Shown in pieces: positions 6,302 to 27,365 of a DNA stretch of 64,000 nucleotides. The number at the start of each line of letters is the position of its first letter. Position 1 is the stretch's first letter. A program made the translations under genes and the position numbers. This DNA is from Streptomonospora alba. Its GTDB lineage: Bacteria; Actinomycetota; Actinomycetes; Streptosporangiales; Streptosporangiaceae. The notes beneath the pieces were generated by a model, which did not search any database, was not told where the DNA came from, and saw only the letters and a list, made by a program, of their open reading frames with translations. The stretch lies in assembly GCF_000826685.1 (NCBI RefSeq), contig NZ_JROO01000009.1:1-64000 (forward strand), in the 5' to 3' direction.

Positions 6302-6641
6302 CGTGCACCCTGGTGCACCCTCGCCGCAGGGCTGGATGACGGGAGGGAGTCTGCACAGCGGCCCGTCGGCGCGAGGTCGTGCATCCTCGCGTGCACCCTG
6401 GGCAGCAAGAAAGCCCTGCCTGTTCGGTTCGGTACCGCAGGTTAGGGCTTTTTTCGTACAGAGCGGATGACGGGAATCGAAGGCTGCAGGGGGAGTTCGC
6501 TGACCTGCGAGTATTCGAGTATCCCCAGGCTGTGGACGAGGTGCGGGCCAGGTTGTGCGCGGATGCGCCGGGACGGATAGCGAGATGTGCACCCTGGTGT
6601 GTGCACCACCTCCGCAAATTCCGTGCACCCTCCGGGGGCAC
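6302..6641. repeat. att-like direct repeat A (tRNA-Gly 3'-end copy)
   Basis: First copy of a 338-340-bp direct repeat also found at 14918-15255 and 21848-22185. In order it holds GTGCACCC boxes in direct orientation (one box is degenerate, GTGCATCC), a hairpin of GCCCTGCCTG type with a T run, the core at 6461-6481 containing GCGGATGACGGGAATCGAA (identical to the 3' end of tRNA-Gly at 27294-27314), about 140 bp of conserved sequence, and an imperfect GTGCACCC/GGGGGCAC inverted pair at 6623-6641. It is more diverged than copies B and C. I read it as the left boundary of the integrated island. A trace of the array-terminal sequence (gcgccgtcagcggg near 6237) lies just to its left, hinting at a lost earlier unit. 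Confidence 0.8.
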
Positions 6642-6800
6642 GAGCCCTTCGATCGCCTTGGGGGGATCCTGGACGATCGCCGGCATGGCAGCGCCAAACA
6701 GCGGGCCCCCAGTAGGCTGGGGTGTCGGCGCAGCCCGTTGTGTGGCGGGCTTCGGAACCGGAAGCTCATGGATTTCCGGGGGAGATTGCTGGGACCTACC
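6642..6800. repeat. leader-like repeat, copy 1 (truncated)
   Basis: Copy of the leader-like sequence seen intact at 17431-17671 and 26338-26575. It retains the cggcatggcagcgcc segment, the gcgcagcccgttgtgtgg segment and the left arm CTTCGGAACC, but the right arm of the inverted repeat is decayed. No CRISPR repeat follows it; instead the lasso/ABC cargo begins at 6855, suggesting that cargo was inserted between this leader and its array or that the array was lost. Confidence 0.6.
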
Positions 6801-6854
6801 TGAGTGGGTGCTCACGTTCAGGCGGGCCGACTCGCCGCGGTGCGAACCCCCGGC

Positions 6855-7607
6855 TCAGGCGTCGCGGCGAAAGAGGCAGTAGCCGCCCGCCGCCGCAGCG
6901 AGAATCCCCCATCCGACGAGGATGGCTGCGGCCGCGCCCGGGTGGAGTTCGGTGACGCTGTAGGCCGGGGTGCCAACCAGGCTCAGGCTCGCCTCGTGCG
7001 GGAGCAGCCGGATCACCTCCGGCACCTGGAATACGCCGGTGGCCACCAGCACGGGAGCCAGAACCAGGAGAGCCGGCGGCGCCACCACGGTGCGTGTAAC
7101 GATCGCGAGCCCGAAACCGATCACCGGCAGCACGATGTAAACCGCGTACCAGCGCAGCAGTTCCACCGCGATATCCGGCTCGGACGTCTCCCCGAGCAGG
7201 AGAGCCAGGCGGCCGGGGGTCACCACTGCAACGGCTGCGGGCACTGTCACAGCCAGCAGTGCCGCGAGCTTCGCGGCGTACAGCCGCAGCCGGTCGGGCA
7301 CCGCGGTGAGCGTCACGCGCAGTTGTCCATTGTGGTACTCGCTTCCGGCCGCGAAGACCGCGACCAAGACGAACACGTAGACCGGCGCCATCAGCACGCC
7401 ACCGAGGTCGGAAAGTGCCACAGCGCCGCCACCGGTGCCGATGCGGATGGCGTCGGTCGCGGCGGCGGCGCCCAACCCGGTATTGAGCACCAGTGTGGCG
7501 GCGATGGCCAGCCACGTCACCGGATGCGTGACGATCTTGGTGGCTTCAGCGGCGAACAGGTCGCGTCGGCGCAGGGTCGCGACTGCTGTGGTGGCTTCGG
7601 CCGTCAT
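6855..7607 (-). CDS. ABC transporter permease, second subunit (immunity type)
   Basis: Polytopic membrane protein of 250 residues with six predicted helices (for example LGGVLMAPVYVFVLVAVFA, LLAVTVPAAVAVV and ILVGWGILAAAAGGYCL). The organisation is that of ABC-2/BcrB-type permeases that pair with a separate ATPase. Its ATG overlaps the stop of the preceding permease (ATGA at 7604-7607), so both are in one operon with the ATPase at 8398-9150. Together they form a BcrAB/immunity-like exporter. Position at the end of the streptomonomicin cluster suggests self-resistance, but no direct evidence of substrate is in the sequence. The last residues end LFRRDA at the edge of the leader-like repeat. 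Confidence 0.8.
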   Translation of the reverse strand: MTAEATTAVATLRRRDLFAAEATKIVTHPVTWLAIAATLVLNTGLGAAAATDAIRIGTGGGAVALSDLGGVLMAPVYVFVLVAVFAAGSEYHNGQLRVTLTAVPDRLRLYAAKLAALLAVTVPAAVAVVTPGRLALLLGETSEPDIAVELLRWYAVYIVLPVIGFGLAIVTRTVVAPPALLVLAPVLVATGVFQVPEVIRLLPHEASLSLVGTPAYSVTELHPGAAAAILVGWGILAAAAGGYCLFRRDA

Positions 7608-8404
7608 CGGGCGTCTCGCAGGCGGATCGCGACCGCAGCCCCGGCAACGGTGGCCGCCGCCCAGCCGGTCAGTACGGTCGCTCCGTGCAGCGGGCTCGCG
7701 CTGAGGACATTGGTCGTGGGCTCCAGCAGCAGGTTGCGCGCGGCGCTCAACGGCAGTAGGGCGTCGATGGCCGGTACGGTGGCGAACACTTGCGCCATCG
7801 TCAGCGCGATGATGGCGGTAACGGCGATAATCCCCACCAGGGTGCGCCGGACCAGCAGTGTGATGGCGAATCCGACCAGGGTCACCGTGACCGCGTACAG
7901 CAGGAACCGCCCTTGCCCGGCCAGCGCCTCAGCGCTCCACAGGATGCCGGGATTCCAGTCGCGGACCCCCAGATACATGAAGAAGGTCGACAGCGCCGCG
8001 ATGACGACACCGACGATGAGGGCGTACAGCGCGGTCGCGATCACCTTGCCGAGGACAAGCTTCCCCCGGCGCGGGACGACCGAAACGCTGACCCCCAGGT
8101 GGCCGGAACGGAACTCCTGTCCGGCGATGATGGCGCCGATGATCGGCAGAAACAGCCCTGGTTGCAGTGAGGACGCCACCAGCAGCCCCAGAACCACGGG
8201 CTCGGCCTGCTGGCGGTGGCCGGTGAAGAACTCGATAGTGCCGTCGGGGCGCATGCCGGCGAGGGAGTCGGCCAGCATGCCTAGCGGCTGGACCAGTACA
8301 ACCACGGCGAGCAGCAACAGCGCCGCCGTGGCGATCAGGACGCTGGGCAGTGTGGTGATCTTTGTAAGTTCTGAGCGTACGACGCTGGTCACGGTCCTCA
8401 CCAC
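7604..8404 (-). CDS. ABC transporter permease, first subunit (immunity type)
   Basis: Membrane protein of 266 residues with about six helices: an N-terminal anchor (VLIATAALLLLAVVVLV), an ABC-2-type fold with FLPIIGAIIAGQEFRSGHLG, and later IIAVTAIIALTMAQV. The GxEFRxG motif is typical of BcrB/YhaP-like permeases that start with a cytoplasmic gate helix. The start overlaps the end of the ATPase gene by seven bases and the stop overlaps the second permease, so the three genes are tightly coupled. Having two different permeases with one ATPase is common in bacteriocin and lanthipeptide immunity transporters of the LanFEG type, which is my best functional analogy. Confidence 0.8.
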   Translation of the reverse strand: MVRTVTSVVRSELTKITTLPSVLIATAALLLLAVVVLVQPLGMLADSLAGMRPDGTIEFFTGHRQQAEPVVLGLLVASSLQPGLFLPIIGAIIAGQEFRSGHLGVSVSVVPRRGKLVLGKVIATALYALIVGVVIAALSTFFMYLGVRDWNPGILWSAEALAGQGRFLLYAVTVTLVGFAITLLVRRTLVGIIAVTAIIALTMAQVFATVPAIDALLPLSAARNLLLEPTTNVLSASPLHGATVLTGWAAATVAGAAVAIRLRDAR

Positions 8405-9150
8405 CCTTCGCCTGGCGTGCCACCGGTGAGCTCGAAGAACGCCTCCTCCAGCGAGGCGTTCCCGGCGGTGACGTCGGCGAGCGTCCCCTGGGCGATGATG
8501 CTGCCGCGGTTGATGATGACCACGTCATCGACGGTTTCGGCGGTCTCACCCATCAGGTGGCTCGACAGCAACACGGTGTTGCCTTCGGCCGCGTAGGACC
8601 GCAGAAACGTGCGGACCGTGCGGATGCCCTCGGGGTCGAGGCCGTTGGCCGGCTCGTCGAGGACGAGCGTACGGGGCTCGCCTAGCAGCGCAGCGGCCAA
8701 ACCCAAGCGCTGCTTCATGCCAAGGGAGTACTTGCGTACCCGTGTCTTCGCCGCGTGGGAGAGACCGACCTGCTCCAAGACCTCCTCCACCCGCTTCCGC
8801 GGGATCCGGTTGGACTGGGCGATCCACCGCAGGTGGTCGGCGCCGCGCCGTTCGGGCACCGGCCCGGCGCCGTCGAGCAGGGCGCCGACGGACCGAAGCG
8901 GCTGGGCGATCCTGCTGTAGGGGACGCCGCCGATCAGCGCGGTGCCGGAGGTGGGGCGGTCCAGACCCAGCAGCATGCGAAGGGTTGTGGATTTGCCGGC
9001 GCCGTTGGGCCCGAGGAACCCCGTGACCCGGCCGGGCGCGGCAGAGAAGGACACGTTGTCGACGGCCTTGTTCGAGCCGAACCGCTTGCTGAGTCCGGTA
9101 ATCGCAATCACGTTATTCCACGGCTCCTCAATACCGTTTCGCATCGTCAA
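8398..9150 (-). CDS. ABC transporter ATPase, BcrA/LanF-like
   Basis: ATP-binding subunit of 250 residues. Walker A is GPNGAGKST, the Q-loop region follows, the signature is the variant YSLGMKQR, and Walker B is TLVLDEPANGLDP with the H-loop at LLSSHLMGE. The KYSLGMKQRLGLA signature together with the C-terminal SLEEAFFELTGG is characteristic of BcrA-type bacitracin/lantibiotic immunity ATPases. It heads a three-gene operon with two permeases. A start downstream (GTG in NNVIAITGL, preceded by GAGGAG) is possible because the first Met lacks a good ribosome site. Inferred role: expelling the mature lasso peptide or protecting the membrane from it. Confidence 0.88.
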   Translation of the reverse strand: MTMRNGIEEPWNNVIAITGLSKRFGSNKAVDNVSFSAAPGRVTGFLGPNGAGKSTTLRMLLGLDRPTSGTALIGGVPYSRIAQPLRSVGALLDGAGPVPERRGADHLRWIAQSNRIPRKRVEEVLEQVGLSHAAKTRVRKYSLGMKQRLGLAAALLGEPRTLVLDEPANGLDPEGIRTVRTFLRSYAAEGNTVLLSSHLMGETAETVDDVVIINRGSIIAQGTLADVTAGNASLEEAFFELTGGTPGEGW

Positions 9151-9270
9151 GAGATCCCATAGCGCCCGATCCCCATCGGCTATAGATCGACTGCGGGACG
9201 CCGTCAGGTTCCTCTCCTAGCCGGCACCTCACACGGCCCCGAGTTTTGCACATCATCGGGGGGCGGTCCA

Positions 9271-11157
9271 TCAGGCGTCCAGGAATTGCCGTTCCGCCAA
9301 CCCCCGATACAGTTCTGAGCTGCGCAGAAGCCGAGAATGGGTGTCTTGGGCCACTACGTGCCCTTCGTCGACTACCACGATGGTGTCGGCCGACTGCACG
9401 GTGGCCAGGCGGTGGGCGATGATCACGATTGTGCGGTCGGGTCCGGATGCATTGAGCACCTCTTGTACGACTTCCTCATTGCGGCTGTCCAGATTCGAGG
9501 TGATCTCGTCCAGCAACAGGACCGGCGAACCCACGGCGAACGCGCGCCCCACGGCCAGCCGTTGGCGCTCGCCGCCGCTGAGTTGCTCGCCCAACTCGCC
9601 GACCTGCCGGTCCAGCAGCGCGACCGCGGCGTCGCGGTCGGCGGCCAGATTGACGCGCACCAGCGCCTCGGCGCAGGCGTCGTCGGACAGGGCATGATTG
9701 CCGATCGTCAGGTTCTGGCGCACGGTGCCCGACAGCACGGGAGCATCTTGCTCGACGTAGGACAGTTGGGAACGCAGTTCGTCCCGGGAGACGGTGCGCA
9801 CGTCGCGGCCGTCGAAGAGGATGCGACCGGAAGTCGGCTCGTAGAAGCGCTCCAGCAGCGCGAATATCGTCGATTTTCCGGCACCCGAAGGACCGACGAT
9901 CGCCGTCGTAGCACCGCGCGGAATGTGAAAGTCCACCCCTTCGAGCGCATTTTCTGGCTTGCCGGCTCCGTTCGTTCCGGGATAAGTGAAGTGGACCGCT
10001 TCGAACCGGAAAATCGCGTCGGTGGAGTCGTCATCGGGGCCTGCGGTGCCCATCTGGTCCGTAGAGGATTCGGGTCCTCCGGTGGAACCCGTTTCCGGCT
10101 TGTCCTTTTCTGTTTTGAGCTTAAGTACCTCCTGAATCCGGGTCAACGCGCCGAACGCTTCTCCCAGAAGAGAGAGGATGCTGCCGAACATTCCGATCGG
10201 CGCTGCGAGATAGAGCAGGTACATCATGTACGCGCTCAGGTCGCCGATGGTGATCGCGTCGGCGGCGACGCGCAGCGCGCCGACGCCCACGACGACGATC
10301 AGCAGAAGCTGGACGGCGACGCCGGTGAGGGTCTGGATCGCAGCCTTGAGAGACGCCGCGATCCGGCCGTGGCCCAGAACGTCCTGGGAGTGCCGTATTG
10401 CCGAGGCCACCTCCCGGTCGGTGGCCCGGCTTGCCCGGATCATGCGCAGCCCGCTGAGTCCTCGGCTCAGCTCGGCCGCAAGCTGGCCGATCGAGTGCTG
10501 CATGCTCAAGCCGGCTGGGCGGGTGCGGCGCCCCAGCATGACCACCGCCGCCAGCAGGCCGGTGACGACGATAACGGTGACCAGCAGGAGCACCGGGTCG
10601 ATGATCCCCATCATCACGATGGAGACGGCGATGGTGATGCCGCTGGTCGCGATCTCGACCAGGCCGGAGCTGAGGATCGCTCGCGTGTGGGCCACATCGG
10701 CGGTGACTCGGGAGACCAGGTCGGCCCGCGGTCGGCCTTCCACCTCGGCCATGTCCAGGCGATAGAGGTGGTCGATGATCTTGGCGCGGGTCTCGTGCGC
10801 GAACCGTTCGGCCGTGCGCTGCAGGATGAGCTGTCGCAGACCGGTGAGTAGCGAGCTGGCGGCGAGCAGCCCGATAAGCGTCCCGATCCAGATCCGGGAC
10901 ACCTCACCGCGGAATCCGTCGACTATAGAGGAGACCACCAGCGGTTGCAGGGCGCTCGCCAGGGTGGCGACGATCCCGAGCGCCAACGCCAGCACCAAGG
11001 CGTTGCGGTAGGGCCGCAGCAGCGGCATGACCGTGCGGAACCCGGCCGGTTTGCTTCGGCCGGGGACCGCGTCCGCCGTCGGCGCTGCCGTCCTGCTGCC
11101 GACCGCGGTCGCGCTGTCGGTTGCCGCTGCATCGCCGGGCGGAATCGTCGCGGTCAT
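9271..11157 (-). CDS. lasso peptide ABC exporter (StmD-type)
   Basis: Fused ABC exporter of 628 residues. Residues 1-45 are a low-complexity N-terminus, followed by a six-helix transmembrane domain (first helices ALVLALALGIVATLASAL and TLIGLLAASSLLTG). A charged linker rich in Gly, Ser and Asp follows, then the nucleotide-binding domain with Walker A GPSGAGKST, signature LSGGERQR and Walker B VLLLDEITS. No N-terminal C39 peptidase is present, as expected of lasso D proteins, which export an already processed peptide. It lies 57 bp downstream of the B2 protease in the same orientation, so it is probably the last gene of the A-C-B1-B2-D operon. Confidence 0.88.
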   Translation of the reverse strand: MTATIPPGDAAATDSATAVGSRTAAPTADAVPGRSKPAGFRTVMPLLRPYRNALVLALALGIVATLASALQPLVVSSIVDGFRGEVSRIWIGTLIGLLAASSLLTGLRQLILQRTAERFAHETRAKIIDHLYRLDMAEVEGRPRADLVSRVTADVAHTRAILSSGLVEIATSGITIAVSIVMMGIIDPVLLLVTVIVVTGLLAAVVMLGRRTRPAGLSMQHSIGQLAAELSRGLSGLRMIRASRATDREVASAIRHSQDVLGHGRIAASLKAAIQTLTGVAVQLLLIVVVGVGALRVAADAITIGDLSAYMMYLLYLAAPIGMFGSILSLLGEAFGALTRIQEVLKLKTEKDKPETGSTGGPESSTDQMGTAGPDDDSTDAIFRFEAVHFTYPGTNGAGKPENALEGVDFHIPRGATTAIVGPSGAGKSTIFALLERFYEPTSGRILFDGRDVRTVSRDELRSQLSYVEQDAPVLSGTVRQNLTIGNHALSDDACAEALVRVNLAADRDAAVALLDRQVGELGEQLSGGERQRLAVGRAFAVGSPVLLLDEITSNLDSRNEEVVQEVLNASGPDRTIVIIAHRLATVQSADTIVVVDEGHVVAQDTHSRLLRSSELYRGLAERQFLDA

Positions 11158-11214
11158 CTCATGCCCCCTGGTGGTTTGCTGTGGTGGTCGGTTTCTTCGT
11201 TCGCTCGACCCTGA

Positions 11215-11646
11215 TCACGCACTGGGGCGCGCCGAACCGGGATCGACTTTGAGTGTGGGGATGAAGTCGCGTACAGCCTCGGGCTCGTCCACAGGAACAC
11301 CGTCGACCTCCACCCACGCGTGCGCGAGGAAGGGGTTGGGACGTATGCCGGCGCGCCAGGAGGAGACGGAACCGTAGGAGCGGGCCAGCAAGAACGTCGC
11401 GACCGACCGTGGTACGCACCCTTCTCCGGCACACCTGGCACTGACGCTCACAACGGCGCGGCGGCAGGAGGAGACGGTCTCGGGCGTCGCCGCGCGTCCG
11501 CCGCGCCCGGCCAGCCGGAGTGTCCCTACCAGCAGGCGCGGCGGCAGGGCGCTCATCGCCAGCGCGAGCGCGACGCAGACGCGCGCCCGTAGGCCCTTGT
11601 TCATCGGGGCGCTGCCGACGTCCTCGGGCAGGATCGGGGAGCTCAT
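11215..11646 (-). CDS. stmB2: lasso peptide B2 leader peptidase (transglutaminase-like)
   Basis: Protein of 143 residues matching the stand-alone B2 Cys protease of actinobacterial lasso clusters. The catalytic Cys lies in GCVPRSVATFLLARSYG (Cys77) and the His/Asp pair in FLAHAWVEVDG (His109, Asp115). An N-terminal basic/hydrophobic region precedes it. The enzyme cleaves the leader after the conserved Thr at position -2 of the precursor. The start overlaps the stop of the B1 gene (ATGA at 11643-11646), so expression is coupled. The gene symbol follows the naming convention of the streptomonomicin cluster as I remember it; the family assignment itself is firm. Confidence 0.9.
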   Translation of the reverse strand: MSSPILPEDVGSAPMNKGLRARVCVALALAMSALPPRLLVGTLRLAGRGGRAATPETVSSCRRAVVSVSARCAGEGCVPRSVATFLLARSYGSVSSWRAGIRPNPFLAHAWVEVDGVPVDEPEAVRDFIPTLKVDPGSARPSA

Positions 11647-11909
11647 GAGTGCCGCACCTCGACCAGCTTGGCCTTGCGGAGCTGGTCCACCAGTTCGGTG
11701 AGGTCGTCCCGGACAGTCTGCTCGGGGGCGGAGGTTGCGGCGCTGATGTCCCGGGCGACCTCGTCGACGGTCTCACCGTCGGCTATGCGCGTGAGCATCG
11801 TGTACGCCGACGAGTTGAGGTGCCAGTATTCGCCGTTGCGCAGGTTGAGGACGAAGTTGTCGCCGTCCCGGGAAACGATCTGCACGTTGGGCCGCATCTG
11901 GACTCTCAT
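11643..11909 (-). CDS. stmB1: lasso peptide B1, PqqD-like RiPP recognition element
   Basis: Small PqqD-fold protein of 88 residues. Typical B1 features are the beta strands VQIVSRDGDNFVLNLRNGEYWHLN, the helix SSAYTMLTRIADG and the C-terminal winged segment RDDLTELVDQLRKAKLVEV. It binds the precursor leader (YxxP region) and delivers it to the B2 protease. The ATG at 11909 follows GGAGG with an 11-base gap; a GTG at 11921 inside that site would add four residues. It sits between the asparagine-synthetase-like cyclase and B2, in the canonical order. Confidence 0.88.
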   Translation of the reverse strand: MRVQMRPNVQIVSRDGDNFVLNLRNGEYWHLNSSAYTMLTRIADGETVDEVARDISAATSAPEQTVRDDLTELVDQLRKAKLVEVRHS

Positions 11910-11959
11910 GAGGGCTGCCACCTCCGAGGGAAGCGAAGATCAAGCGGATTCTGGTGGGT

Positions 11960-13846
11960 TCAGGCTGTTCCGGATGATTCGGGGAGGGCGTCGTGGAGTC
12001 GCACGGAGCGCACCCATTCCTCGGCGAACGCCAGGTAGGCCAGGTCGGTGTACTCGCGGCCGGTGATGGAGAACCGCTGGGCGCTTTCGAGTACGGCACG
12101 GGGGTCGACCAACCCCATGTCCTCAAGCAGCGAACCGTCGGCGAAAAGCTCCCCGATCCGGGTATTCAACGCCCGGTGCTGGTCGAAAACCTCGGCTGTG
12201 TAGTCGCCCTTGTCGCGTCTGGTGAAGTAGTCGAGGCTCATGGTCGGCGGGCGCGCGGCTGCCAGAAGCGGCTTCGCCGGATACTGCTGCGCGCGGTCGG
12301 CGACATCGAGCGACAGCGCGAGGTCGACCACGTGGCGGTCGAGATAAGGGCTGTCGAACAGGATCGGCACACTGTCGCGGCGGGATGGACCGACGGCCCG
12401 GTTCATGCCGCGGACCGCGGCGCCGTGCACGGTCAGATACTGCATGATCTCGTGTGTGGTCAGGTCGGCCGACAGCGGCTGAGGGTCGGCTCTGACGGTC
12501 GCCTCGACAAGGCTGTGCAGGCGTTCGCGTGCGGCTGCGGTCATGGCCGGGTGGATCCGGGGGCGGTTCACCCAGCGAGAGAAGTCGGCGATGTCGTAGG
12601 CGGCGCGCGCGTCGTCCAGGTGCCGGGGCAGATCCGCGAGGTCCCTTCGCAGCGAGCCGCGATGCAGCAGCATGCGCGACATCGCGAACAGCGGGTACCG
12701 GTTGAGGACGCGGTGCCGCCGGATTTTGCGCAGCCGCCCGGGGGTGTTGGAGCGCAGCAGCGACCAGGCGAGGCTGGGGACGGGACCGAAGAGCGCGTCG
12801 CCGCCGTGGCCGTTGAGGTGGATCCGGCTGCCGGTCGGTTTCAAAACGGACCTGATGCGAGGCGTGGCCGCGATCGCCACGGTCGACACGCCCGGCCCCT
12901 CGGGAAGCAGATCGACTGACGGTGCGGCGTCGGTGCCGAGAGCGTCGATGAACGTCTGGTAAGGCTGCTCGATGTGGTGCGATCCGATCTCGTCGGCGGC
13001 GCGCGACGCCCACTCGTGGTCCCGGTTCGCGCGGTTGACGCTGGCTAGGAACAGGGTGTGGTGACCGGCGGTTCGAGTCACGGAATCCTCGGCGAGTATG
13101 AATCCGAGGGTGGTGGAGTCCAGCCCGCCGGAAAGGTCGGAGCTGAAGTTCGGACGGCGCTGGATGCGTCGACTGAGGGCCTGCGACATCGCGGCGCGCA
13201 GTGGGTCGGCGAGGTCGGCCGTGGACCGGTCAGGACTCGGCGGCTGCCACCACGTGACATTCCGAGTTCCATGACCGGGCTCCCATGCGGTCCACGTGCC
13301 CGGGGGTGCCGTGCTGATACCCGACCAGACGGTGTGCTGGGCGAACGGGTAGCTCAGACCGAGGTCGGTCAGGCGGCCGGCCAGGACGTCGAGGTCGAGG
13401 TCCAGACCGGACAGCTGCGCCAGGGTGAACTGGTCGTCGCTGAAGACGGTGCCGGAGCCGCGCTCCGTCCAGCAGAACGCACGGGTCTGGAACACGGGGG
13501 CTTGAAGCCGCAGTCGGCCGCTCCGGGGCTCGCGGGCGACGGCGACGACGTCGGCTTCGACCAGCTCTGTAAGGGGGCGGTCGAGTTCGTCGATGCGGCG
13601 TCGCCCAGCGCAATCCCGGGCGAGGACGTCATCGGTGCGGTCGGTCGAGGTCCCGAACAGATATACCTCGATGTCGCGGTTACGCACGGACGCGGCCACG
13701 CCGTCCTCACGGGTTAGCAGCCACGGGTGCCCGGACTCCGTATTCGCCGCCGCCGAATACCCCTGGGCGGCCAGTTTCGAGCGCACCTCATCATCGGCGA
13801 TGCCATCAGGAAGAACAACGATCGGCACGCAGGTGCCCCTTTCCAT
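11960..13846 (-). CDS. stmC: lasso peptide cyclase (asparagine synthetase-like)
   Basis: Macrolactam synthetase of 628 residues. The N-terminal third resembles a glutaminase-like domain that lacks the catalytic Cys2; the C-terminal domain carries the ATP-pyrophosphatase P-loop SGGLDST at residues 239-245. It adenylates the Asp side chain at core position 9 and closes the ring onto the core N-terminus. The ATG at 13846 is used here, but a GTG at 13828 (VPIVVLPDG) preceded by GAAAGGGG is equally plausible. A weak hairpin at 13920-13933 separates it from the precursor gene, which would lower cyclase transcription relative to the precursor. Confidence 0.9.
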   Translation of the reverse strand: MERGTCVPIVVLPDGIADDEVRSKLAAQGYSAAANTESGHPWLLTREDGVAASVRNRDIEVYLFGTSTDRTDDVLARDCAGRRRIDELDRPLTELVEADVVAVAREPRSGRLRLQAPVFQTRAFCWTERGSGTVFSDDQFTLAQLSGLDLDLDVLAGRLTDLGLSYPFAQHTVWSGISTAPPGTWTAWEPGHGTRNVTWWQPPSPDRSTADLADPLRAAMSQALSRRIQRRPNFSSDLSGGLDSTTLGFILAEDSVTRTAGHHTLFLASVNRANRDHEWASRAADEIGSHHIEQPYQTFIDALGTDAAPSVDLLPEGPGVSTVAIAATPRIRSVLKPTGSRIHLNGHGGDALFGPVPSLAWSLLRSNTPGRLRKIRRHRVLNRYPLFAMSRMLLHRGSLRRDLADLPRHLDDARAAYDIADFSRWVNRPRIHPAMTAAARERLHSLVEATVRADPQPLSADLTTHEIMQYLTVHGAAVRGMNRAVGPSRRDSVPILFDSPYLDRHVVDLALSLDVADRAQQYPAKPLLAAARPPTMSLDYFTRRDKGDYTAEVFDQHRALNTRIGELFADGSLLEDMGLVDPRAVLESAQRFSITGREYTDLAYLAFAEEWVRSVRLHDALPESSGTA

Positions 13847-13919
13847 CGGGGTGGGCGCGGACGTGGGGATAACCTCGCGGATTCCTGCTCCACGCCCACC
13901 CCTAAACAGACCGGATTAA

Positions 13920-13933
13920 CCGCTATAAAGCGG
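13920..13933 (-). terminator. weak hairpin between stmA and stmC
   Basis: Inverted repeat CCGCT-ATAA-AGCGG, four bases after the precursor stop codon, followed on the minus strand by TTAATCC rather than a T run. It could act as a partial terminator or RNA-stability hairpin that gives precursor-rich transcripts, as proposed for other lasso clusters. Confidence 0.5.
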
Positions 13934-13936
13934 CCG

Positions 13937-14062
13937 TCACGGGTAGATGACGATCAGAGCCGGGTAGCCCAGGATGTCGTTGTAGGGGGAGCTGCCGAGG
14001 CTCTTGGTGACGTCCTTGAACTTGCCGATACGGGTGAGAGTGGGGATCTCGTAAGCGCTCAT
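13937..14062 (-). CDS. stmA: lasso peptide precursor, streptomonomicin
   Basis: Precursor of 41 codons, too short for ordinary gene calling. The leader is 20 residues, MSAYEIPTLTRIGKFKDVTK, with the YxxP motif (Tyr4, Pro7) and Thr at -2 that B1 and B2 recognise. The 21-residue core starts SLGSSPYND and ends ALIVIYP; Asp at core position 9 is the ring acceptor for the Ser1 amine. This core matches streptomonomicin, the Streptomonospora alba lasso antibiotic active against Gram-positive bacteria, as I recall the published sequence. GAGG lies eight bases before the ATG. The remaining lasso genes follow on the same strand. Confidence 0.93.
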   Translation of the reverse strand: MSAYEIPTLTRIGKFKDVTKSLGSSPYNDILGYPALIVIYP

Positions 14063-14160
14063 ATCCCATTCCTCGTTTCGCTGTAGCTGCAACCGATCGC
14101 GTCCGTGAACCACGAACGCGGGTCACGTGATCCGCTATGCGGACTCGCGACTCGGACAGG

Positions 14161-14189
14161 ACATTAGATGCGGAGGAAGAAGCTGGCAA
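14161..14189 (-). promoter_or_regulatory. candidate promoter of stmA operon
   Basis: On the minus strand TTGCCA (14184-14189) and TAATGT (14161-14166) are separated by exactly 17 bases, a good match to the housekeeping consensus. Transcription would begin near 14154, giving a leader of about 90 bases before the stmA start. Confidence 0.5.
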
Positions 14190-14510: not shown

Positions 14511-14643
14511 GTTGGGAACCGGAAGTACTCATGGGATTCCGGGTAGGTTCCTAAGGACATTCGGGGTGTCTTGGGTTTTCGTGTCCGGTTCCCATGCTTG
14601 GTTGGACGCATGACCCTCGGGTGTTTTCCAAGATCAAGCGCAG
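14511..14643. repeat. diverged leader-like sequence before CRISPR array 1
   Basis: Contains ggaaccggaagtactcatgg and a later gtaggttcct, recognisably related to the leader-like repeat at 17431-17671 but shifted and diverged. It directly precedes the first repeat of array 1 at 14644, which is the position of a CRISPR leader. Confidence 0.5.
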
Positions 14644-14870: not shown

Positions 14871-14917
14871 AGGTGCGGGGCGACCCCTGAAGTCTCACGG
14901 GGGCGGCGGGCCATCCC

Positions 14918-20183: not shown

Positions 20184-20332
20184 TGTTCCTCAAGCTTGGT
20201 TTGCCGCAATTGGCTAGGGGGATGGCGGAATATAAGGGGCGCCACGCGTGCCGGCGGCCACCTGACGCAGCCGACGATGCGCTCAAGCTTCTCGGCCACA
20301 CACGGGGGACGCGCCGCTCATCCCCACATGTC

Positions 20333-21577: not shown

Positions 21578-21631
21578 CTTCCTAGCAGAGGCGAGCATCC
21601 ACCGGCAGGAGGCGGCCGCCCCCGGCCACCC

Positions 21632-21797
21632 GCTGCGGTCGCCGTCCGCGGCGGCCGAGGATCGCAACACGGTGGGCATGGCCGGGGCCGGAAAGAGCGT
21701 GTAGTTGCGGTCGCTGTCCGCGGCGGCCGAGGATCGCAACGCCGCCGAAGACCTCGAAGCGCGGCTGCGCGTGGTGGTGGCGGCCGCCGCCAGCGGT
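21632..21797 (+). CRISPR. CRISPR array 3 (2 repeats plus degenerate end)
   Basis: Repeats at 21632-21668 and 21704-21740 (37 nt each, loop TCCG), spacers of 35 and 36 nt, degenerate last repeat from 21777. It has no leader copy immediately upstream; the divergent pentapeptide gene starts 55 bp to its left. Transcription from that gene would run away from the array. It probably represents the distal end of an array whose leader side was replaced by cargo. Confidence 0.75.
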
Positions 21798-21847
21798 CCA
21801 GGTGCGGGGCGAGTCCCGAAGGCTCACGGGGTCGGCGGGGCGGTCCC

Positions 21848-22185
21848 GTGCACCCTGGTGCACCCTCGCCGCGGGCCGGATGACGGGATGGAGTCTGCAC
21901 AGCGGGCCGCCGGCGCGAGGTCGTGCACCCTCGCGTGCACCCTGGGCATGAAAAAAGCCCTGCCTGTTCGATTCAACATCGCAGGTCAGAGCTGTTTTTC
22001 GTACAGAGCGGATGACGGGAATCGAAGACTGCAGGAGGGGTGCGCTGACCTGCGAGTATTCGAGTATCCCCAGGCTGTGGGTGAGGCATGGGCCGGGTTG
22101 TGCGCGGTTGCGCCGGGATGGATAGCGAGACGTGCACCCTGGTGGTGCACCACCTTCACCGACCTCGTGCACCCTCGGGGTGCAC
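21848..22185. repeat. att-like direct repeat C
   Basis: Third copy of the 338-bp repeat, with the core at 22006-22026 and GTGCACCC boxes in the same order as copy B. The hairpin preceding the core has one change on its right side (caggtcagagctg). The terminal inverted pair is GTGCACCC-TCG-GGGTGCAC at 22167-22185. Copies B and C are closer to each other than to A. Confidence 0.82.
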
Positions 22186-22309
22186 CAGCGACCCGAACGG
22201 GTAGCGGACCGCTTGCCACGGCCGACGACATGAATAGTTCAATAACTGGGAGCCCCTTGATCCCAGGTCGTACGCATGGAGAATGGTCAGCTGACCGATC
22301 ACCGCAGGA

Positions 22310-23977
22310 TTACTCAGTATCGATATCAGCCTCTCCAACTTGGTCGTCAGCGTGCTGTACGCCTAGCCCGCTCATGAATTGGCGTTCTCGCTCTGCCAAG
22401 AACTGTGTTCGAGTCTCGATAAATCCCTGGTCTTTCCCTAGGCGCAGGTACCTCACGGATTCCTCCGGGATACCATGTGACTTAAGGACACTTCGCCCTT
22501 CGTCGTCTAACGCCAGATCCACCAAAGTCTGGCGCAGTGAGGTGCCGGAGGGCGAAGACATGATCAGTCGATTGGCAGGGCTCGACACATCGGCTAACCT
22601 GCGATTCGTTACAGCATGACGGTAGGCCTCCGTGTGGGAGCGCGCGAGCAACTCTGCCGGCTTGATGGTCGTTCTGCGGTCCGAATCGATCCGATGCGGA
22701 AACTCCCGAAGTTCCCACAAAATAAAAGTGCGCACCCGTGCACTACGGAAATCGAATTTGCTTGGGAACGGTCGGGCACGTTGATCGTGGAAGTCCAAGG
22801 GCCCCTTACCGAGCGCGAAATCCCTCATCCTTTGCAGCGCCTCCCGCACCTGAGTCGTGTTCGCTCCCGCGAATGTCCCAGCCCAGGAGGTAGTCCAGAA
22901 CCAACGCTCCAGATCTGCCAGTCGCTCTCGATCGGGCTCCGCGCAATAGTGGAAAAACGCAGCCAGTAGTACAACCTGCAGGTTGTACGGAATGAGGCGG
23001 GCAACGGGCACCCACACTGTATCGCGCAGGAATTCGATGGTCTTGTCCAGGGCGGCGTCGGCTTTTTCTACGGCATCGACTAACCCGCCTTCCACCCGCT
23101 TCGCTAGAACCTCCCAGCCGGTGCGCTGTATGTCCTCCTCGCCAGAAATCGCTAGAACGACTCGGAAGACAGTCAAGGAGGGGATGTCGCCGAATCCGGT
23201 GGCGGCAATCCGTTCCCGAATATCTTCAATTCGTTCGCTCAGGCTCTCCGGACCAGTCGTTGTGTAGGTTAGTGCGGAGACCATCTGATCGGGCGACATG
23301 GGTTGCCCGCTACTATTGACCCGCGAGAACACTTCGACGGCTTGCGAGAGGCTTCCGCCCGTGAGACGTACAATTGCCATCTGGTGGGACTTGAGTCGCG
23401 CCGCTACCGCCTCCGCGTCGGCGATGAGGTTATCCACATCTTCGTCCTCGGCACGCTGTTGGAGTTCCCGGGCGAAACCGAGGAAATCCATGGTTCGCAG
23501 AAGCGAACGCAAAGGCAGGAAGTGGAGCGGTGGCCTTGCTTCCGTTTTCCAGTGCCGGTAGCGGCTCGACCGGTCGTCACCGCTGCGTAGATCGCGATAT
23601 ACCCACCACATCCAATCTTTCTGGTCTGGGGATCTCCGAGCGTCGGCCGATCGTCGCAACGCCCCGTACAGCGTGGACAGTCGCTGGTGGCCGTCTAGAA
23701 CGTAGGCTGTCTGGCGGTTCGATTCGGGAGGAGGGATGGGAAGGCCGCCGATTTCGTCCAGGCTTTCCAGCGGCAAATCCGTCTGCCAGATCAACAGACT
23801 ACCGATAGGGTAGCCGCGCTCGATGCTGTCAAACAGCCCGAGCATCTGCTCGGGCCGCCATACGAAGGGCCGTTGGAACTTCGGAACTCGCAGGTCGCCC
23901 CTGCCGATAGAATCTAGCACTTGTTCCAACAACCAAATCTCTGGCTTGACCGAGATTTCGTCGTGGGTATCCGGCAT
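22310..23977 (-). CDS. DUF262 domain protein
   Basis: Protein of 555 residues. The N-terminal DUF262 domain shows KFQRPFVWRPEQMLGLFDSI (residues 33-52), YPIGSLLIWQ and YVLDGHQRLSTLYG with DGHQR at 95-99, then FSRVNSSGQPMS. The C-terminal half carries a helical region and no HNH motif that I can see, so it is not a complete GmrSD enzyme. Its start is eight bases after the TOPRIM gene stop, so the three genes ATPase, TOPRIM and DUF262 form one operon. The likely job is the NTP-dependent sensor or regulator of the system, by analogy with other DUF262 proteins. Confidence 0.83.
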   Translation of the reverse strand: MPDTHDEISVKPEIWLLEQVLDSIGRGDLRVPKFQRPFVWRPEQMLGLFDSIERGYPIGSLLIWQTDLPLESLDEIGGLPIPPPESNRQTAYVLDGHQRLSTLYGALRRSADARRSPDQKDWMWWVYRDLRSGDDRSSRYRHWKTEARPPLHFLPLRSLLRTMDFLGFARELQQRAEDEDVDNLIADAEAVAARLKSHQMAIVRLTGGSLSQAVEVFSRVNSSGQPMSPDQMVSALTYTTTGPESLSERIEDIRERIAATGFGDIPSLTVFRVVLAISGEEDIQRTGWEVLAKRVEGGLVDAVEKADAALDKTIEFLRDTVWVPVARLIPYNLQVVLLAAFFHYCAEPDRERLADLERWFWTTSWAGTFAGANTTQVREALQRMRDFALGKGPLDFHDQRARPFPSKFDFRSARVRTFILWELREFPHRIDSDRRTTIKPAELLARSHTEAYRHAVTNRRLADVSSPANRLIMSSPSGTSLRQTLVDLALDDEGRSVLKSHGIPEESVRYLRLGKDQGFIETRTQFLAERERQFMSGLGVQHADDQVGEADIDTE

Positions 23978-23985
23978 GTGCCCCC

Positions 23986-24936
23986 CTAAATGATCCTCCG
24001 CAGCATGGCAAGTAGTCCGCGCAGTTCCTCGACGACCCCTTTCCCGATACTCTCAAAGTCGCTGGCGGTGATCTTGCCCGGCGCAGCCTCACGTTCCAGC
24101 AGCTTCGTCAGGTTGTCGCCGAATCCGCTACCAAGCACATCGACGGTCGTGTCCTCGAGATCACTGTACAGGTCTCCGTGGTTCGTACTAGGTTGCGGCT
24201 TTCCGGCGAATCCCTTCTTCATATCGAAGTACCCGCGTTGTTGCGCTGAGAGGAGCTTCAGTGCATCAATTCGTCTTCCAACTTGCTTGTGGGGGGTGAC
24301 AGCAGCGAGTACCTTGTTGGGTACGTAGTTCTCCGCTTCGCGCAACTCCAGCACATGGACCCATGCTCCTAGTTGCCGTAACTCGTCGGCGGTTCGGTGG
24401 GACTTGGTGCTCTGACCCGGTTGAAGTCGGTCACTGTCGAGCAGCACCGCCACACGCTTGGTGCGCCTGAAGCGGTTGAGGTCTTCGGCACAGTGGTCCT
24501 TGACACGGCCACTTCCTCCACCGTGTTGAAGTTCCAGATGGTTTGTGGAGAGTGCGCGGAGAACGTCATTGCCGTCGAGGACATGCGCGACCGCAACGAG
24601 GAAGCTCCGATCGGAATACCTATCCTCCACGATCAGGTAGGCGGACTGGCGCAAGTCATGCACGTCATCATGCAGAGTCTCGCTGGTGACATTAACGGGT
24701 GGTTGAGTAGCACCACTGCCGGCCCATGCCTGGTTGACGCTGGCCTTGCGCGCGAACTCGGCGGCTGAGGATCCCAACCGCCCGAAGTTGCGGTGGCAGT
24801 AGTCGCCTGCGGTGACCGCGTCCCGAGGGTCGATGACCCAGTCGTGACGGCCACGGACGAATTCTTGGATGAGGTCGTAAATTTGCCGGGAATGCCCATC
24901 TGCTTCGAATAGTTTGGAGCAGAGCCGAACCCGCAT
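23986..24936 (-). CDS. TOPRIM-like nuclease candidate, partner of AAA ATPase
   Basis: Protein of 316 residues. The central region has a TOPRIM-like pattern: a strand ending in Glu (SAYLIVEDRYSDRSFL, Glu104) and, 60 residues later, a strand ending in Asp-x-Asp (RVAVLLDSDR, 167-169). This matches OLD/AriB-type nuclease subunits, although the usual spacing and the rest of the fold are hard to judge by eye. Start and ATPase stop share one base (TGATG), strong evidence for co-translation. A two-gene ATPase-TOPRIM pair is the plan of PARIS and of split OLD systems; the addition of DUF262 downstream is what is unusual. Confidence 0.6.
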   Translation of the reverse strand: MRVRLCSKLFEADGHSRQIYDLIQEFVRGRHDWVIDPRDAVTAGDYCHRNFGRLGSSAAEFARKASVNQAWAGSGATQPPVNVTSETLHDDVHDLRQSAYLIVEDRYSDRSFLVAVAHVLDGNDVLRALSTNHLELQHGGGSGRVKDHCAEDLNRFRRTKRVAVLLDSDRLQPGQSTKSHRTADELRQLGAWVHVLELREAENYVPNKVLAAVTPHKQVGRRIDALKLLSAQQRGYFDMKKGFAGKPQPSTNHGDLYSDLEDTTVDVLGSGFGDNLTKLLEREAAPGKITASDFESIGKGVVEELRGLLAMLRRII

Positions 24937-26216
24937 CAGCGCTCCATCGATCTGCTCTGTGCCTCAGTAAGCGCCCGGGCCTCTTCAAAGTCCTCGGAGA
25001 ACACGCCCGTGGGCCAGTAGTCGAGGTTGCCCAACCTATCTACCCCAACCCGGCGTGCCTGAGCCGAACCTTCGGAGTGCTCGACGAAGTAAATGGAGAG
25101 GTCCTCCGGAGCGATCTCGCCCTCGGCGACGCGACGGCGCAGCCGGAGTAGGAAGGTTTCGCTATGTGTCTCCACGAGATAGCGTACGGCGGTCTCACGG
25201 CTCCCGCGCAGCAATAGGTCCGCCACCATCGCGTGGGCCGAGGGATGGAGATGCAATTCCGGCTCCTCCACCACTTGCAGGACCGGGCGTTGGGGTGACT
25301 GCGCCGCATCCATTGCCCGTTGCGTCAACAGCGGCAACAATTGTGCAACACCGGTTCCCGCATCTCGAAGGTTAACTTTGACGTGTTTTTCGGTCAAAGC
25401 GCTGAGATCTAGCGTGAAGTGCCGGTCGTCAAGGCTGTGCACCTCGAATTTCCATCCAGGAAGATGCTCGGAGAGGAGATCGTTGATCTTATCGATGATC
25501 TGCCGTCGTCCCCGAACCGCATCGTAGCCGATCATGCCCAATGCTTCCTCTCCGGAACTACCCACTGCAAGGGGTGCACGCGAGGGCAGGCGGGCCACCC
25601 ATTCCGGTCGTTCACGGAACGGGCCGAGGTAGCGGATCCGGTCGAATCCTTCCCGAATGACGGAAGCAGCAAAATCTGTTGGTGAAGAGGAAAGCGTGGG
25701 CTCCCGTATTTCGGCTGGCAGTAGTCCACGAAATGAAAGCGACTGAAGTGAGCTCTCGCACTCTTCGGGATTTCGCACTCGATATGAGCGCCGCGAACTC
25801 CATGCACTTTCGTCTTCCTTGTAATCCCAAGTCATTTGAGTCGCTGTGGAGTTCGCCCGCAAGACAAGTTCGCTTATTACCTGGGTTTGCCATTCATCAA
25901 TGTTCTGGATTGTCGCCTCCAGGCCGAAGGGGCCGAAGGCTTCGTGTTCAAAGTCCAGTCCGAGCTGGACTCTGCCGTGGGGGTTTCCGCCATAGATGAG
26001 GTCGGAGAAGGTCGGCGCGGCGTCACCGAGTAGGTCGAGGTCCAGTGGCAGGGAAGACTGGGTCCGCACGCCCGTTGAGAGCACGAGAGGGGCGCGTACC
26101 AGCGCGCTCTTGCCAGAATTGTTCTTGCCCAAGACGACCGTGATGCGCCCGAGTTCGATATCCTGTCGGTCGTCGAAGCAACGGTAGTTCTCCACGGAGA
26201 ATCGTGAGAGCGCCAT
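24936..26216 (-). CDS. AAA/ABC-type ATPase with DUF3696-like C-terminus
   Basis: ATPase of 426 residues of the RecF/OLD class. It opens MALSRFSVENYRCFDD, with Walker A GKNNSGKS (30-37), Walker B LQVVEEPELHLHP and a His switch at LVETHSETFLLRLRRR. The C-terminal YFVEHSEGSAQARRVGVD and GVFSEDFEEA are characteristic of DUF3696 ATPases. The frame extends upstream to 26255, but the Met at 26216 starts the conserved fold. It is the first gene of the three-gene operon. In comparable anti-phage systems such ATPases sense infection and release or activate the nuclease partner. Confidence 0.85.
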   Translation of the reverse strand: MALSRFSVENYRCFDDRQDIELGRITVVLGKNNSGKSALVRAPLVLSTGVRTQSSLPLDLDLLGDAAPTFSDLIYGGNPHGRVQLGLDFEHEAFGPFGLEATIQNIDEWQTQVISELVLRANSTATQMTWDYKEDESAWSSRRSYRVRNPEECESSLQSLSFRGLLPAEIREPTLSSSPTDFAASVIREGFDRIRYLGPFRERPEWVARLPSRAPLAVGSSGEEALGMIGYDAVRGRRQIIDKINDLLSEHLPGWKFEVHSLDDRHFTLDLSALTEKHVKVNLRDAGTGVAQLLPLLTQRAMDAAQSPQRPVLQVVEEPELHLHPSAHAMVADLLLRGSRETAVRYLVETHSETFLLRLRRRVAEGEIAPEDLSIYFVEHSEGSAQARRVGVDRLGNLDYWPTGVFSEDFEEARALTEAQSRSMER

Positions 26217-26337
26217 GCGGTCGAGTCTAGACTGTCGGTGCGGGCCTCGCACCACCTACGCTGCTTGCGCAGCGGGGCGCGATGGCCACCGATAAGCGGG
26301 GGGTAGTGGTGGCTAGAGGCGCGACCCCCGATGGTGA

Positions 26338-26575
26338 ACGAGTCCTCGATCGCCTCGGAACATCTTGAACGATCGTCGGCATGGCAGCGCCACACGGCGG
26401 GCCGCCAGTAGTCTGGGGGATCGGCGCAGCCCGTTGTGTGGCGGGCTTCGGAACCGGAAGCTCTCATAGATTTTCGGGGGGTTCCGAAGTAGGTTCCTTC
26501 CTGAGTGGGTGGGTATGTCCGTTCTCGTTGCACTGCGCGGCGGGGCTCGTATGGGCATTTCGCCTGCTCGGGCGC
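26338..26575 (+). repeat. leader-like repeat, copy 4 (complete)
   Basis: Second complete leader copy, directly before array 4. The inverted repeat is CTTCGGAACC at 26446-26455 and GGTTCCGAAG at 26480-26489. It differs from copy 2 by scattered substitutions but keeps both arms exactly and keeps the last 100 bp that abut the first CRISPR repeat. Confidence 0.65.
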
Positions 26576-27082
26576 GTGGCGGTCGCCGTCAGCGGCGATG
26601 AGGATCGCAACGAATCCGAGAACGTCACGCGCGTCTCCGTCACCGAGGTGGCGGTCGCCGTCAGCGGCGACCGAGGATCGCAACTCTTCGGACCATCCCT
26701 GCCAGCGGCGCGGCAGGTGCAGTGGTGGTCGCTGTGAGCAGCGGCCGAGGATCGCAACTCCATCAGCCGGGTATCGCGGGCGATGTCCTCAGGAGTGGCG
26801 GTCGCCGTCAGCGGCGGCCGAGGATCGCAACAGCCCAGCCGGGAAGCGTGCGGACAAGGATGTCGTCGTGGCGGTCGCCGTCAGCGGCGGCCGAGGATCG
26901 CAACACGGGCTTGTCCTCGCCCTTCTCGGCGGCGGTGTCGTGGCGGTGGCCGTCTGCGGCGGCCGAGGATCGCAACTCCCTCATACGTCCGCGCACGTCC
27001 TGTCTCAGAGGGGTGGCGGTCGCCGTGAGCGGCGGCCTCCACCCGCATCCGGCGCTGTTCAGGTGGCGGGCGCCGCCAGCGG
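26576..27082 (+). CRISPR. CRISPR array 4 (7 repeats plus degenerate end)
   Basis: Repeats at 26576 (36 nt), 26648, 26722, 26795, 26868, 26940 (37 nt each) and a truncated one at 27013-27037, then a degenerate terminal repeat from 27063. Spacers are 35-37 nt. Repeats vary more than in array 2, but the hairpin is largely kept: the 26722 copy replaces a C-G pair by T-A (GCTG/CAGC), and the 26648 copy turns the T-G wobble into T-A (GGTC/GACC). The 3' end ATCGCAAC is constant in the first six. Confidence 0.9.
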
Positions 27083-27134
27083 GCAAGGTGCGGGGCGAGC
27101 CCTCGCAGGCTCACGGAGCCGGCGGGGCCATCCC

Positions 27135-27314
27135 GTGCACCCTGGTGCACCCTCGCCGCGGGGCCGGATGACGGGATGGAGTCTGCACAGCGGGCCGTCG
27201 GCGCGAGGTCGTGCACCCTTGCGTGCACCCTGGGCATGAAAAAAGCCCTGCCTGTTCGATCTGGTATAGCAGGTCAGGGCTATTTTTCGTACAGAGCGGA
27301 TGACGGGAATCGAA
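27135..27314. repeat. att-like repeat D, left half, fused to intact tRNA-Gly
   Basis: Matches the left halves of copies A-C: four GTGCACCC boxes, the terminator hairpin and the 21-bp core 27294-27314. To the right it continues into the complete tRNA gene instead of the element right arm. This is the junction expected of the tRNA-proximal end of an element integrated at the tRNA 3' end. Confidence 0.82.
27239..27281 (-). terminator. terminator of tRNA-Gly
   Basis: On the minus strand AGCCCTGACCTG and CAGGCAGGGCT form a stem with one bulge, followed by six T residues. It lies 14 bp after the tRNA 3' end. The same hairpin precedes the tRNA fragment in copies A-C, where it no longer serves a tRNA. 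Confidence 0.75.
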
Positions 27315-27365
27315 CCCGCGCTATCAGCTTGGGAAGCTGAAGTTCTGCCATTGAACTACATCCGC
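27295..27365 (-). tRNA. tRNA-Gly(CCC)
   Basis: The minus strand folds as a cloverleaf: acceptor GCGGATG/CATCCGC, D-arm GTTC...GAAC, anticodon stem TCAGC/GCTGA with loop TTCCCAA (anticodon CCC), and T-arm GCGGG-TTCGATT-CCCGT. The discriminator is T and CCA is not encoded, as usual for actinobacterial tRNA-Gly. Its 3' end is the target core of the island; the insertion leaves the tRNA complete. Confidence 0.95.

Follow-up and report, generated by a model that had tools for sequence, protein, structure and literature searches.

Integrase-less attachment cassettes with CRISPR borders, probably accreted in tandem at a tRNA-Gly(CCC) gene of Streptomonospora alba

How defence systems without mobility genes of their own move is an open question, and one locus of Streptomonospora alba poses it directly: how did several gene cargoes, none with an integrase, come to lie one behind the other at the 3' end of a single tRNA gene? 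We analysed bases 1-64,000 of contig C100 of the S. alba draft genome (5.9 Mb in 110 contigs, 97.5% complete), a stretch referred to here as the window, whose single tRNA, according to ARAGORN run on the full 64 kb, is tRNA-Gly(CCC). From comparison with the same site in relatives, we consider the locus to be probably a tandem accretion, at the 3' end of this tRNA, of integrase-less attachment (att) cassettes related to an element carrying CRISPR-Cas (clustered regularly interspaced short palindromic repeats and their associated genes). The case for site-specific accretion at tRNA-Gly(CCC) is strong, and the proposal that a tyrosine integrase family termed IntA carried it out is moderately supported, by arms shared with IntA elements and with the exceptions described below.

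A first-pass annotation of this DNA had placed four copies of the tRNA 3' end, with hairpins, in three near-identical 340-bp blocks and beside the intact tRNA gene, and base-level alignment bears this out, with 89-93% identity among blocks A, B and C. The direct repeats start at 6301, 14916, 21846 and 27133, and 21-bp copies of the tRNA 3' end (cores A to D) lie at 6461, 15076, 22006 and 27294, each within a 340-bp block and each with the common hairpin on its left. Gapped identity is 91.5% between A and B (311/340), 89.1% between A and C (302/339) and 92.9% between B and C (315/339); the left arm and core of D are 91.7%, 96.1% and 94.5% identical to those of A, B and C, respectively. To the right of the core, an element arm is common to A, B and C and D continues into the tRNA, again as annotated. 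The 26-mer GTACAGAGCGGATGACGGGAATCGAA is found exactly at 6456, 15071, 22001 and 27289, and at no fifth place in the window on either strand with up to six substitutions. Across the whole S. alba genome the 19-mer core (at most one mismatch) occurs at four places, all of them here and in one orientation, and the reversed-pattern control gave no match. We therefore rejected a dispersed repeat for this genome, since repeats and core are confined to the tRNA-Gly site. An assembly artefact is likewise unlikely, because blocks A, B and C differ by 7-11% and the contents of the units are unrelated.

The blocks look like attP sites. In the left arms, one pair of GTGCACC words lies about 150-160 bp from the core and a second pair at about 70-80 bp, and the terminator hairpin follows (one word is altered in block A); to the right of cores A, B and C lie inverted word pairs, GTGCACCCTGGTGGTGCAC, GTGCACCCTCCGGGTGCAC or variants of them. 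Overall, the window has 48 GTGCACC/GGTGCAC words, and 37 of them are in the 1,284 bp taken as junction DNA. Such words on both sides of a core are what we take to be the typical look of a tyrosine integrase attP site, and we presume that they would serve as arm-type integrase sites. Each internal join of the stack consists of the right arm of a newer unit, the core and the left arm of an older unit; block A has both arms, and thus carries the left arm of a further unit (unit 0) whose body has been lost. We also observed a partial second core copy about 120 bp inside the left arms (window 6334-6344 and counterparts), and found ATGACGGG to be invariant in 17 aligned left arms while the bases around it drift.

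Table 1. Features of the tRNA-Gly(CCC) island, in window coordinates.
Feature	Position	Strand	Source
Left arm of unit 0 (outer unit, body lost)	6301..6455		
Core A	6461..6481		
Right arm of unit 1	6484..6641		
Truncated leader, outer end of unit 1	6666..6810	+	
Cargo 1: lasso-peptide-type cluster and second ABC operon	6855..14201	minus	
Cargo 1, second ABC operon	6855-9150		
Cargo 1, ABC exporter	9271-11157		
Cargo 1, B2	11215-11646		
Cargo 1, PqqD	11643-11921		
Cargo 1, cyclase	11960-13846		
Leader and 3-repeat array, inner end of unit 1	14433..14817	+	
Left arm of unit 1 and hairpin	14916..15070		
Core B	15076..15096		
Right arm of unit 2a	15098..15262		
Cargo 2a: 537-aa protein with NucS_C domain	15276..16889	minus	
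Unit 2a: partial right arm, leader (17456-17665), 5-repeat array (from 17672)	17370..17998	+	
Fused junction: left-arm start of 2a and right-arm end/leader of 2b, no core	18112..18275	+	
Cargo 2b: HEPN protein, NsnA-like GmrSD_N protein, pentapeptide-repeat protein	18334..21739	minus	
Unit 2b array remnant, 2 repeats, 1 spacer (TraB-type gene match, 3 mismatches)	21632..21740	+	
Left arm of unit 2b and hairpin	21846..21998		
Core C, 21-bp tRNA 3' end	22006..22026		
Right arm of unit 3, inverted GTGCACC pairs	22028..22187		
Cargo 3: PADLOC candidate defence operon PDC-M55 C/B/A	22310..26255	minus	
Type I-C CRISPR leader of unit 3, homologous to G030 island leaders	26362..26575	+	
Unit 3 CRISPR array, 37-nt repeats, several degenerate, 35-37-nt spacers	26576..27049	+	
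Left arm D, two GTGCACC pairs and terminator hairpin, adjoining the tRNA	27133..27286		
Intact tRNA-Gly(CCC), 3' end = attachment core D (27294)	27294..27365	minus	ARAGORN

Every unit in addition keeps type I-C CRISPR leader or array DNA close to its arms (Table 1), a feature absent from the first-pass annotation. The array repeat is 37 nt long (GTGGCGGTCGCCGTGAGCGGCGGCCGAGGATCGCAAC and variants) and the spacers are mostly 34-37 nt; arrays lie at 14644-14813, 17672-17995, 21632-21740 and 26576-27049, and leader copies at 6666-6810, 14433-14640, 17456-17665, 18119-18275 and 26362-26575. Many of the repeats are degenerate, and four of the five in array 17672 are identical. Repeats and leaders are the same as those around Cas1c, Csd1 and Cas5c in another Streptomonospora genome, G030, and are by this measure of type I-C. 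The comparison of array 14647-14813 covered the retrieved loci of relatives. The annotated division into three units holds for the three core-bounded stretches, but the middle one, unit 2, is a fusion of two units (2a and 2b) whose core was lost between GTGCAC words near 18112, so that at least four cargoes are present in addition to the left arm of unit 0.

In unit 1, B2 exceeds its NCBIfam cut-off. The models for lasso PqqD (62.8 bits against 70) and lasso cyclase (122 against 300) stay below theirs, Pfam PqqD and Asn_synthase both score above cut-off, and no lasso precursor was identified in the cluster; this cargo is probably a peptide antibiotic cluster. The NsnA-like GmrSD_N protein of cargo 2b has a PADLOC E-value of 1.6e-84; a listed open reading frame (ORF) of this cargo extends into the array and its start is uncertain. 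PDC-M55 C, B and A of cargo 3, namely a GmrSD_N protein, a protein without Pfam match and an AAA ATPase, reach PADLOC E-values of 6e-118 or better. Pfam, PADLOC or NCBIfam scans named no integration or transfer gene in 14 of the 15 main cargo ORFs (7604-8404 lay outside the scans), and general scans of the cargo named no transposase, with no dedicated test for CRISPR-associated transposons (Tn7-like genes, TnsB end sites). Part of cargo 1 recurs at tRNA-Gly in another genus: window 6799-9128 is 90.1% identical at the DNA level, over 2,330 bp, to tRNA-Gly DNA of G008, and the ABC proteins of unit 1 are 92% identical in amino acids to proteins at tRNA-Gly in G143, while the lasso cyclase and exporter were not found in these two tRNA-Gly stretches. 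In G008 (L071 8727-11414) the ABC operon stands beside a copy of the left-arm hairpin, and the same stretch has a short frame resembling window 13923-14201.

In agreement with the claim that the units encode no integrase, none of the 12 Phage_integrase matches in the S. alba genome lies on the contig of the island, in a genome-wide search made for tyrosine recombinases and not for serine recombinases; within that search we found no unit encoding its own recombinase. Nor did scans of the window units name the Rep, TraB/FtsK-like translocase and integrase genes that define actinomycete integrative and conjugative elements (AICEs). A complete host CRISPR system as the owner of the arrays is not supported either: Csd1 was not found in the S. 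alba genome, no Cas3 scored above cut-off, and Cas1 is present only as a fragment split over two frames. With Cas5c left out of the search, the draft thus yields no functional type I-C locus of cas3, cas5c, csd1 and cas1. The Cas1 fragment lies at C100:104080-104651, about 77 kb beyond the tRNA as seen from the island, and no CRISPR array was found in the searched stretches neighbouring it.

We then compared the site across relatives. With a threshold of E 0.001, a 416-bp junction query matched 69 of the 297 family genomes sampled, although many of the lower-scoring matches cover just a short piece of core or hairpin; genomes for comparison were then chosen. The core is present in all 11 chosen genomes, at 24 places, with one to four copies each (one in G107, G147, G128, G008 and G143; two to four in the other six) and in the same orientation where copies share a contig. 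The DNA between the cores differs among genomes, in line with the annotated geometry of successive integrations at one tRNA 3' end. The full tRNA adjoins dcd in 15 of 17 mapped relatives. The att pattern itself was found in seven stretches of genome contigs, six from Nocardiopsis and one from Streptomonospora. A phage source was not supported, as an 863-bp junction query found no phage record and the att pattern occurred in no viral contig; a plasmid source was likewise set aside, the same query matching 17 plasmid records (16 from Streptomyces) over 4-26% of its length, mostly in the array part.

The closest comparison is provided by G030, where dcd is 96-97% and the outer flank gene (window 5226-6206) 89% identical in amino acids to those of the window, so that the site is orthologous. 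Its outermost cores stand about 81 kb apart with other content between them. From the tRNA inward, G030 has a left arm, a 10-repeat array, a leader and the tyrosine integrase IntA, and further in TraG/VirB4-like and TadA/VirB11-like ATPases (the latter below NCBIfam cut-offs). It also has a type I-C cas operon, with bit scores, and NCBIfam cut-offs in brackets, of 436 (385) for Cas1c, 266 (218.65) for Csd1, 163 (85) for Cas5c and 118 (102.45) for the Cas3 core. Leaders and arrays, five copies in the island as a whole, flank this operon, the outermost adjoining the right arm and core, and the outer edge consists of a core, a left arm and one repeat, comparable to window block A. The ends of window unit 1 match the G030 right-arm leader and the leader/array on the cas1 side of the cas operon (80% identity for 14433-14817), as would be expected if cargo 1 had replaced the array-cas segment.

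A discrete unit of this kind is found in Nocardiopsis endophytica (G159), where the core occurs three times. The outer unit there spans 11.2 kb, from the core at 9869 to that at 21087; it runs from a right arm through 27 repeats, cas3, cas5, csd1 and cas1 to 11 repeats, and has no match to IntA or to a second integrase family at this tRNA, IntB; its inner unit, beside the tRNA, is a pSAM2-like AICE with RepSA, an FtsK-like protein, GntR and IntB. Three contigs of N. halophila (G124) are consistent with the succession core-right arm-leader, array-cas-array and array-left arm-tRNA, with the joins unassembled. In Streptomonospora mangrovi (G080), four cores are spread over contigs C5, C6 and C106, the genome has a single IntA gene and two IntB genes, and contig C99 carries a type I-C locus; this looks like a larger stack broken by repeats. 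Csd1 was found in four of the nine genomes searched (G030, G080, G124 and G128).

Full-length IntA occurs in G030, G080, G151 and G238 (64-80% identical to each other) and fragments of it in G147, G076, G241 and G235; IntB occurs in G076, G247, G080 (twice), G159 and G007 (67-77% identical), and the two families are about 25% identical to one another. IntA or its fragment adjoins the left arm in G151, G147, G076 and G241. The IntA units of G238 and G241 are bounded on both sides by GTGCACC clusters; the IntB units of G159, G076 and G080 have no such clusters at their ends. A Replic_Relax protein is also present in G238 and G151. IntA elements share the arms of the window, and an IntA-family enzyme, absent from the S. 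alba genome searched, is a plausible cognate integrase for the window units. The suggestion that an integrase with the same attachment core might be found thus held in relatives, where IntA is associated with similar arms, but not in S. alba, none of whose integrases is an IntA or IntB orthologue.

Taken together, the best explanation of the CRISPR ends is that they were inherited from, or exchanged with, a CRISPR-Cas unit like those of G030 and G159 at this tRNA. In the arrangement we envisage, the right and left arms of each cassette would meet at the core to form an attP-like site. The cassettes would descend from, or have swapped ends with, an integrative element with a type I-C CRISPR-Cas locus, in which the right arm is followed by a leader/array, the cas operon, a second leader/array and the left arm; in S. 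alba, other cargo would have come to sit between the arms beside leader/array stubs, with no cas operon left. A new unit would enter between the tRNA core and the left arm of the resident, each join recreating an attP-like site, so that the newest unit is probably the one beside the tRNA. Integration and excision would need an IntA-family tyrosine integrase from a relative, acting in trans, or in cis after accretion; mobilisation in trans, proposed in the first-pass annotation, is a step that we infer, as we do the role of IntA as cognate enzyme, the order of events, the mobility of the units and the replacement of cas genes by cargo. The finding that relatives hold a whole CRISPR system or other cargo at this tRNA suggests that immunity modules may be exchanged there. 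With a CRISPR-Cas locus and CRISPR-bordered cargo between att sites at one tRNA, and a matching integrase in relatives, the locus offers a testable route for such exchange.

Several observations weigh against this account. Over more than 100 aa, no S. alba integrase exceeds about 31% identity to IntA or IntB (shorter segments reach 40% over 79 aa), and a helper integrase or cas operon could be hidden in a gap, since the assembly is a draft. IntA is set apart from the left arm by about 4.7 kb in G238 and by the array in G030. Arms and integrase family are not always paired: in G247 a GTGCACC right arm belongs to a unit whose integrase is IntB, and the tRNA-side junction of the G159 outer unit lacks a GTGCACC left arm and shows a 44-bp tRNA copy in its place, so that this unit is not an exact repeat of the window arms; both cases weaken the pairing of the arms with IntA. 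The loss of the core in unit 2 and the loss of unit 0 look like ordinary recombination. Relatives of PDC-M55 C (E 1e-60 or better) occur in 19 other genomes of the 297, all outside the genus. Finally, the type I-C locus of G128 lies away from tRNA-Gly and without arms; with eight further array stretches it makes nine (G230, G214, G164, G285, G007, G202, G216, G043 and G128) that gave no arm or tRNA-Gly match, on which ground we rejected CRISPR as an obligate companion of the arms.

How far do other histories account for the same data? The nearest overlaps with our own: the units could be classical cis-mobilizable elements (CIMEs), decayed elements that move only in cis with a newly accreted element, their CRISPR remnants being passengers, and the difference lies in whether the CRISPR ends matter. 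The definition of CIMEs and the three-step tandem model in the accessible part of PMC5704250 accommodate this, as do the IntA fragments beside the left arm in G147, G076 and G241 and that in G235, which look like decay in progress; the leader/array stubs near the arms of all four units, however, appear by eye too regular for random decay, and we place this possibility somewhat short of probable. Alternatively, a single element might have arrived once and decayed, its att blocks and arrays multiplying by duplication and homologous recombination of its own repeats and its cargo arriving by unrelated insertions, with no cassette ever moving alone. Repeat decay in the window arrays, the missing core in unit 2 and the number of leader/array copies in the one G030 island would all sit well with such a history, but it is an unlikely one given that core number and DNA at the same site vary among genomes, that N. 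endophytica has a discrete array-cas-array unit between cores, and that another genus has unit 1 genes, 90% identical in DNA, at the same tRNA. Tandem accretion of integrase-less cassettes could also be extended to a family of 'CRISPR-ended' cassettes, in which an array-cas-array unit would move in trans through the IntA of small Replic_Relax-type elements, cas genes would be exchanged for immune or antibiotic-peptide cargo by leader/array recombination with the arrays as swap ends, and spacers would suppress rival AICEs at the same tRNA; we regard this extension as doubtful and offer it tentatively.

The spacers bear on a further possibility, that the arrays are working sources of CRISPR RNA using the Cas proteins of another element, which would liken the cassettes to mini-array carriers in inter-element conflict. 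Mobile-element genes are indeed matched by spacers of arrays at this tRNA, namely a TraB-type gene, a phage terminase and, within the tRNA-Gly regions of three genomes, part of a NUDIX gene. The NUDIX matches come from two of 35 distinct N. endophytica spacers: both match in G008 and G076, and one of the two also matches this DNA in G143, in which the NUDIX frame was not seen intact; four of these five protospacers are preceded by TTC, the protospacer-adjacent motif of type I-C systems. In G076 the NUDIX gene is part of the IntB unit, and in G030 and G080 it belongs to units with 44-47-bp outer cores; G128 has a single core, and the gene, about 330 bp from the tRNA, could be resident in that genome. 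Within the TraB-type gene of G151, which scores 332 bits against a cut-off of 800, the target of a G030 spacer (one mismatch, TTC) overlaps that of a window spacer (three mismatches, CTG) on the opposite strand. Another window spacer matches the terminase gene of Streptomyces phages (E 8e-5, among the matches listed) and hits three IMG/VR contigs with three mismatches and TTG upstream. The locus presents a case of CRISPR spacers aimed at elements that use the same docking site. The four identical repeats of array 17672 would also suit working arrays. However, just two window spacers have clear targets, neither preceded by TTC, many repeats are degenerate, and the S. alba assembly has neither Csd1 nor a Cas3 above cut-off, all of which makes CRISPR RNA production from these arrays improbable. 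Arrays 26575-27050 and 17672-18003 were the ones searched against phages, and other phage matches of window spacers (E 0.008 to 0.5, among the matches listed) were taken as chance; the 27-repeat N. endophytica array gave one weak phage match (E 0.05). Against the 297 genomes, array 26575-27050 found mainly other arrays among the matches listed, and a 38-bp match in G296 was dropped as the end of a GrpE-like-looking frame.

Among the open-licence papers listed in literature searches, no title or abstract described this locus or integrase-less cassettes with CRISPR ends, and the nearest known systems each share part of its organisation. According to the part of PMC5704250 available, CIMEs lack integration genes, are flanked by att sites and stack at a single target gene. 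The window units are likewise att-flanked at a shared target gene, with no integration or transfer genes of their own found in scans, and so fit CIMEs as far as tested; they differ from the CIMEs described there in that all keep a CRISPR leader or array near the arms and that a related element has a CRISPR-Cas locus between its ends, so that the CRISPR borders and the CRISPR-only unit set them apart. The Dehalococcoides ssrA islands, as covered by the text seen of PMC3146451, likewise stand in tandem at a single RNA gene (of 31 islands, 15 have no integration module, and there are two putative complete CRISPR modules), but with a serine recombinase, a tmRNA target, reductive dehalogenase cargo and no unit-end arrays in that text. 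The microcin H47 island (PMC3191183) is, by its abstract, small, bounded by direct-repeat att sites, devoid of recombination genes and excised by functions from elsewhere, and its peptide antibiotic cargo resembles the probable one of unit 1; it is a single island, and the abstract makes no mention of CRISPR. Mobile elements of Vibrio (PMC6360697) include islands with an entire CRISPR-Cas locus, several of them bounded by att sites or placed at tRNA genes, but most of the islands carry integrase or transposon genes, and no integrase-less stack with end arrays is described in the accessible text. An actinobacterial integrative and conjugative element of the type IV secretion system type joins CRISPR-Cas components with a lantibiotic locus, in the accessible portion of PMC3218068, and so resembles the window in combining CRISPR-Cas genes and a peptide antibiotic on an actinobacterial integrative element, but is a single conjugative element and not a set of integrase-less units. 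Viral CRISPR mini-arrays, as outlined in the part of a review consulted (PMC11656645), are element-borne arrays aimed at related elements; their carriers are viruses, whereas the window arrays stand at the ends of integrated cassettes in a genome in which cas genes searched for were not found.

The AICEs come closest in location, as the tRNA-side unit of N. endophytica has the Rep, FtsK-like and integrase genes of a pSAM2-like element and uses the same tRNA. Such units differ from those of the window in their 43-47-bp tRNA copies at the outer end, in the lack of GTGCACC end clusters (G159, G076 and G080) and in their integrase family. G247 is an exception in having a GTGCACC right arm; its 2.5-kb unit (L078 16821-19380), with this arm at one end and the IntB gene beside the tRNA, is perhaps a hybrid of two element families.

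Two minor observations concern the arrays of relatives. Identical neighbouring spacers occur within one array in G030 (L066 19429-19537) and in G128 (L085 ~5010-5120 and ~5300-5415). In addition, arrays with similar repeats lie about 240-290 bp from tRNA-Arg(CCG) in G230 (L123 5657-7042) and G216 (L129 10242-11072), of another genus, and tRNA-Arg(CCG) is possibly a second tRNA used by CRISPR-bearing elements.

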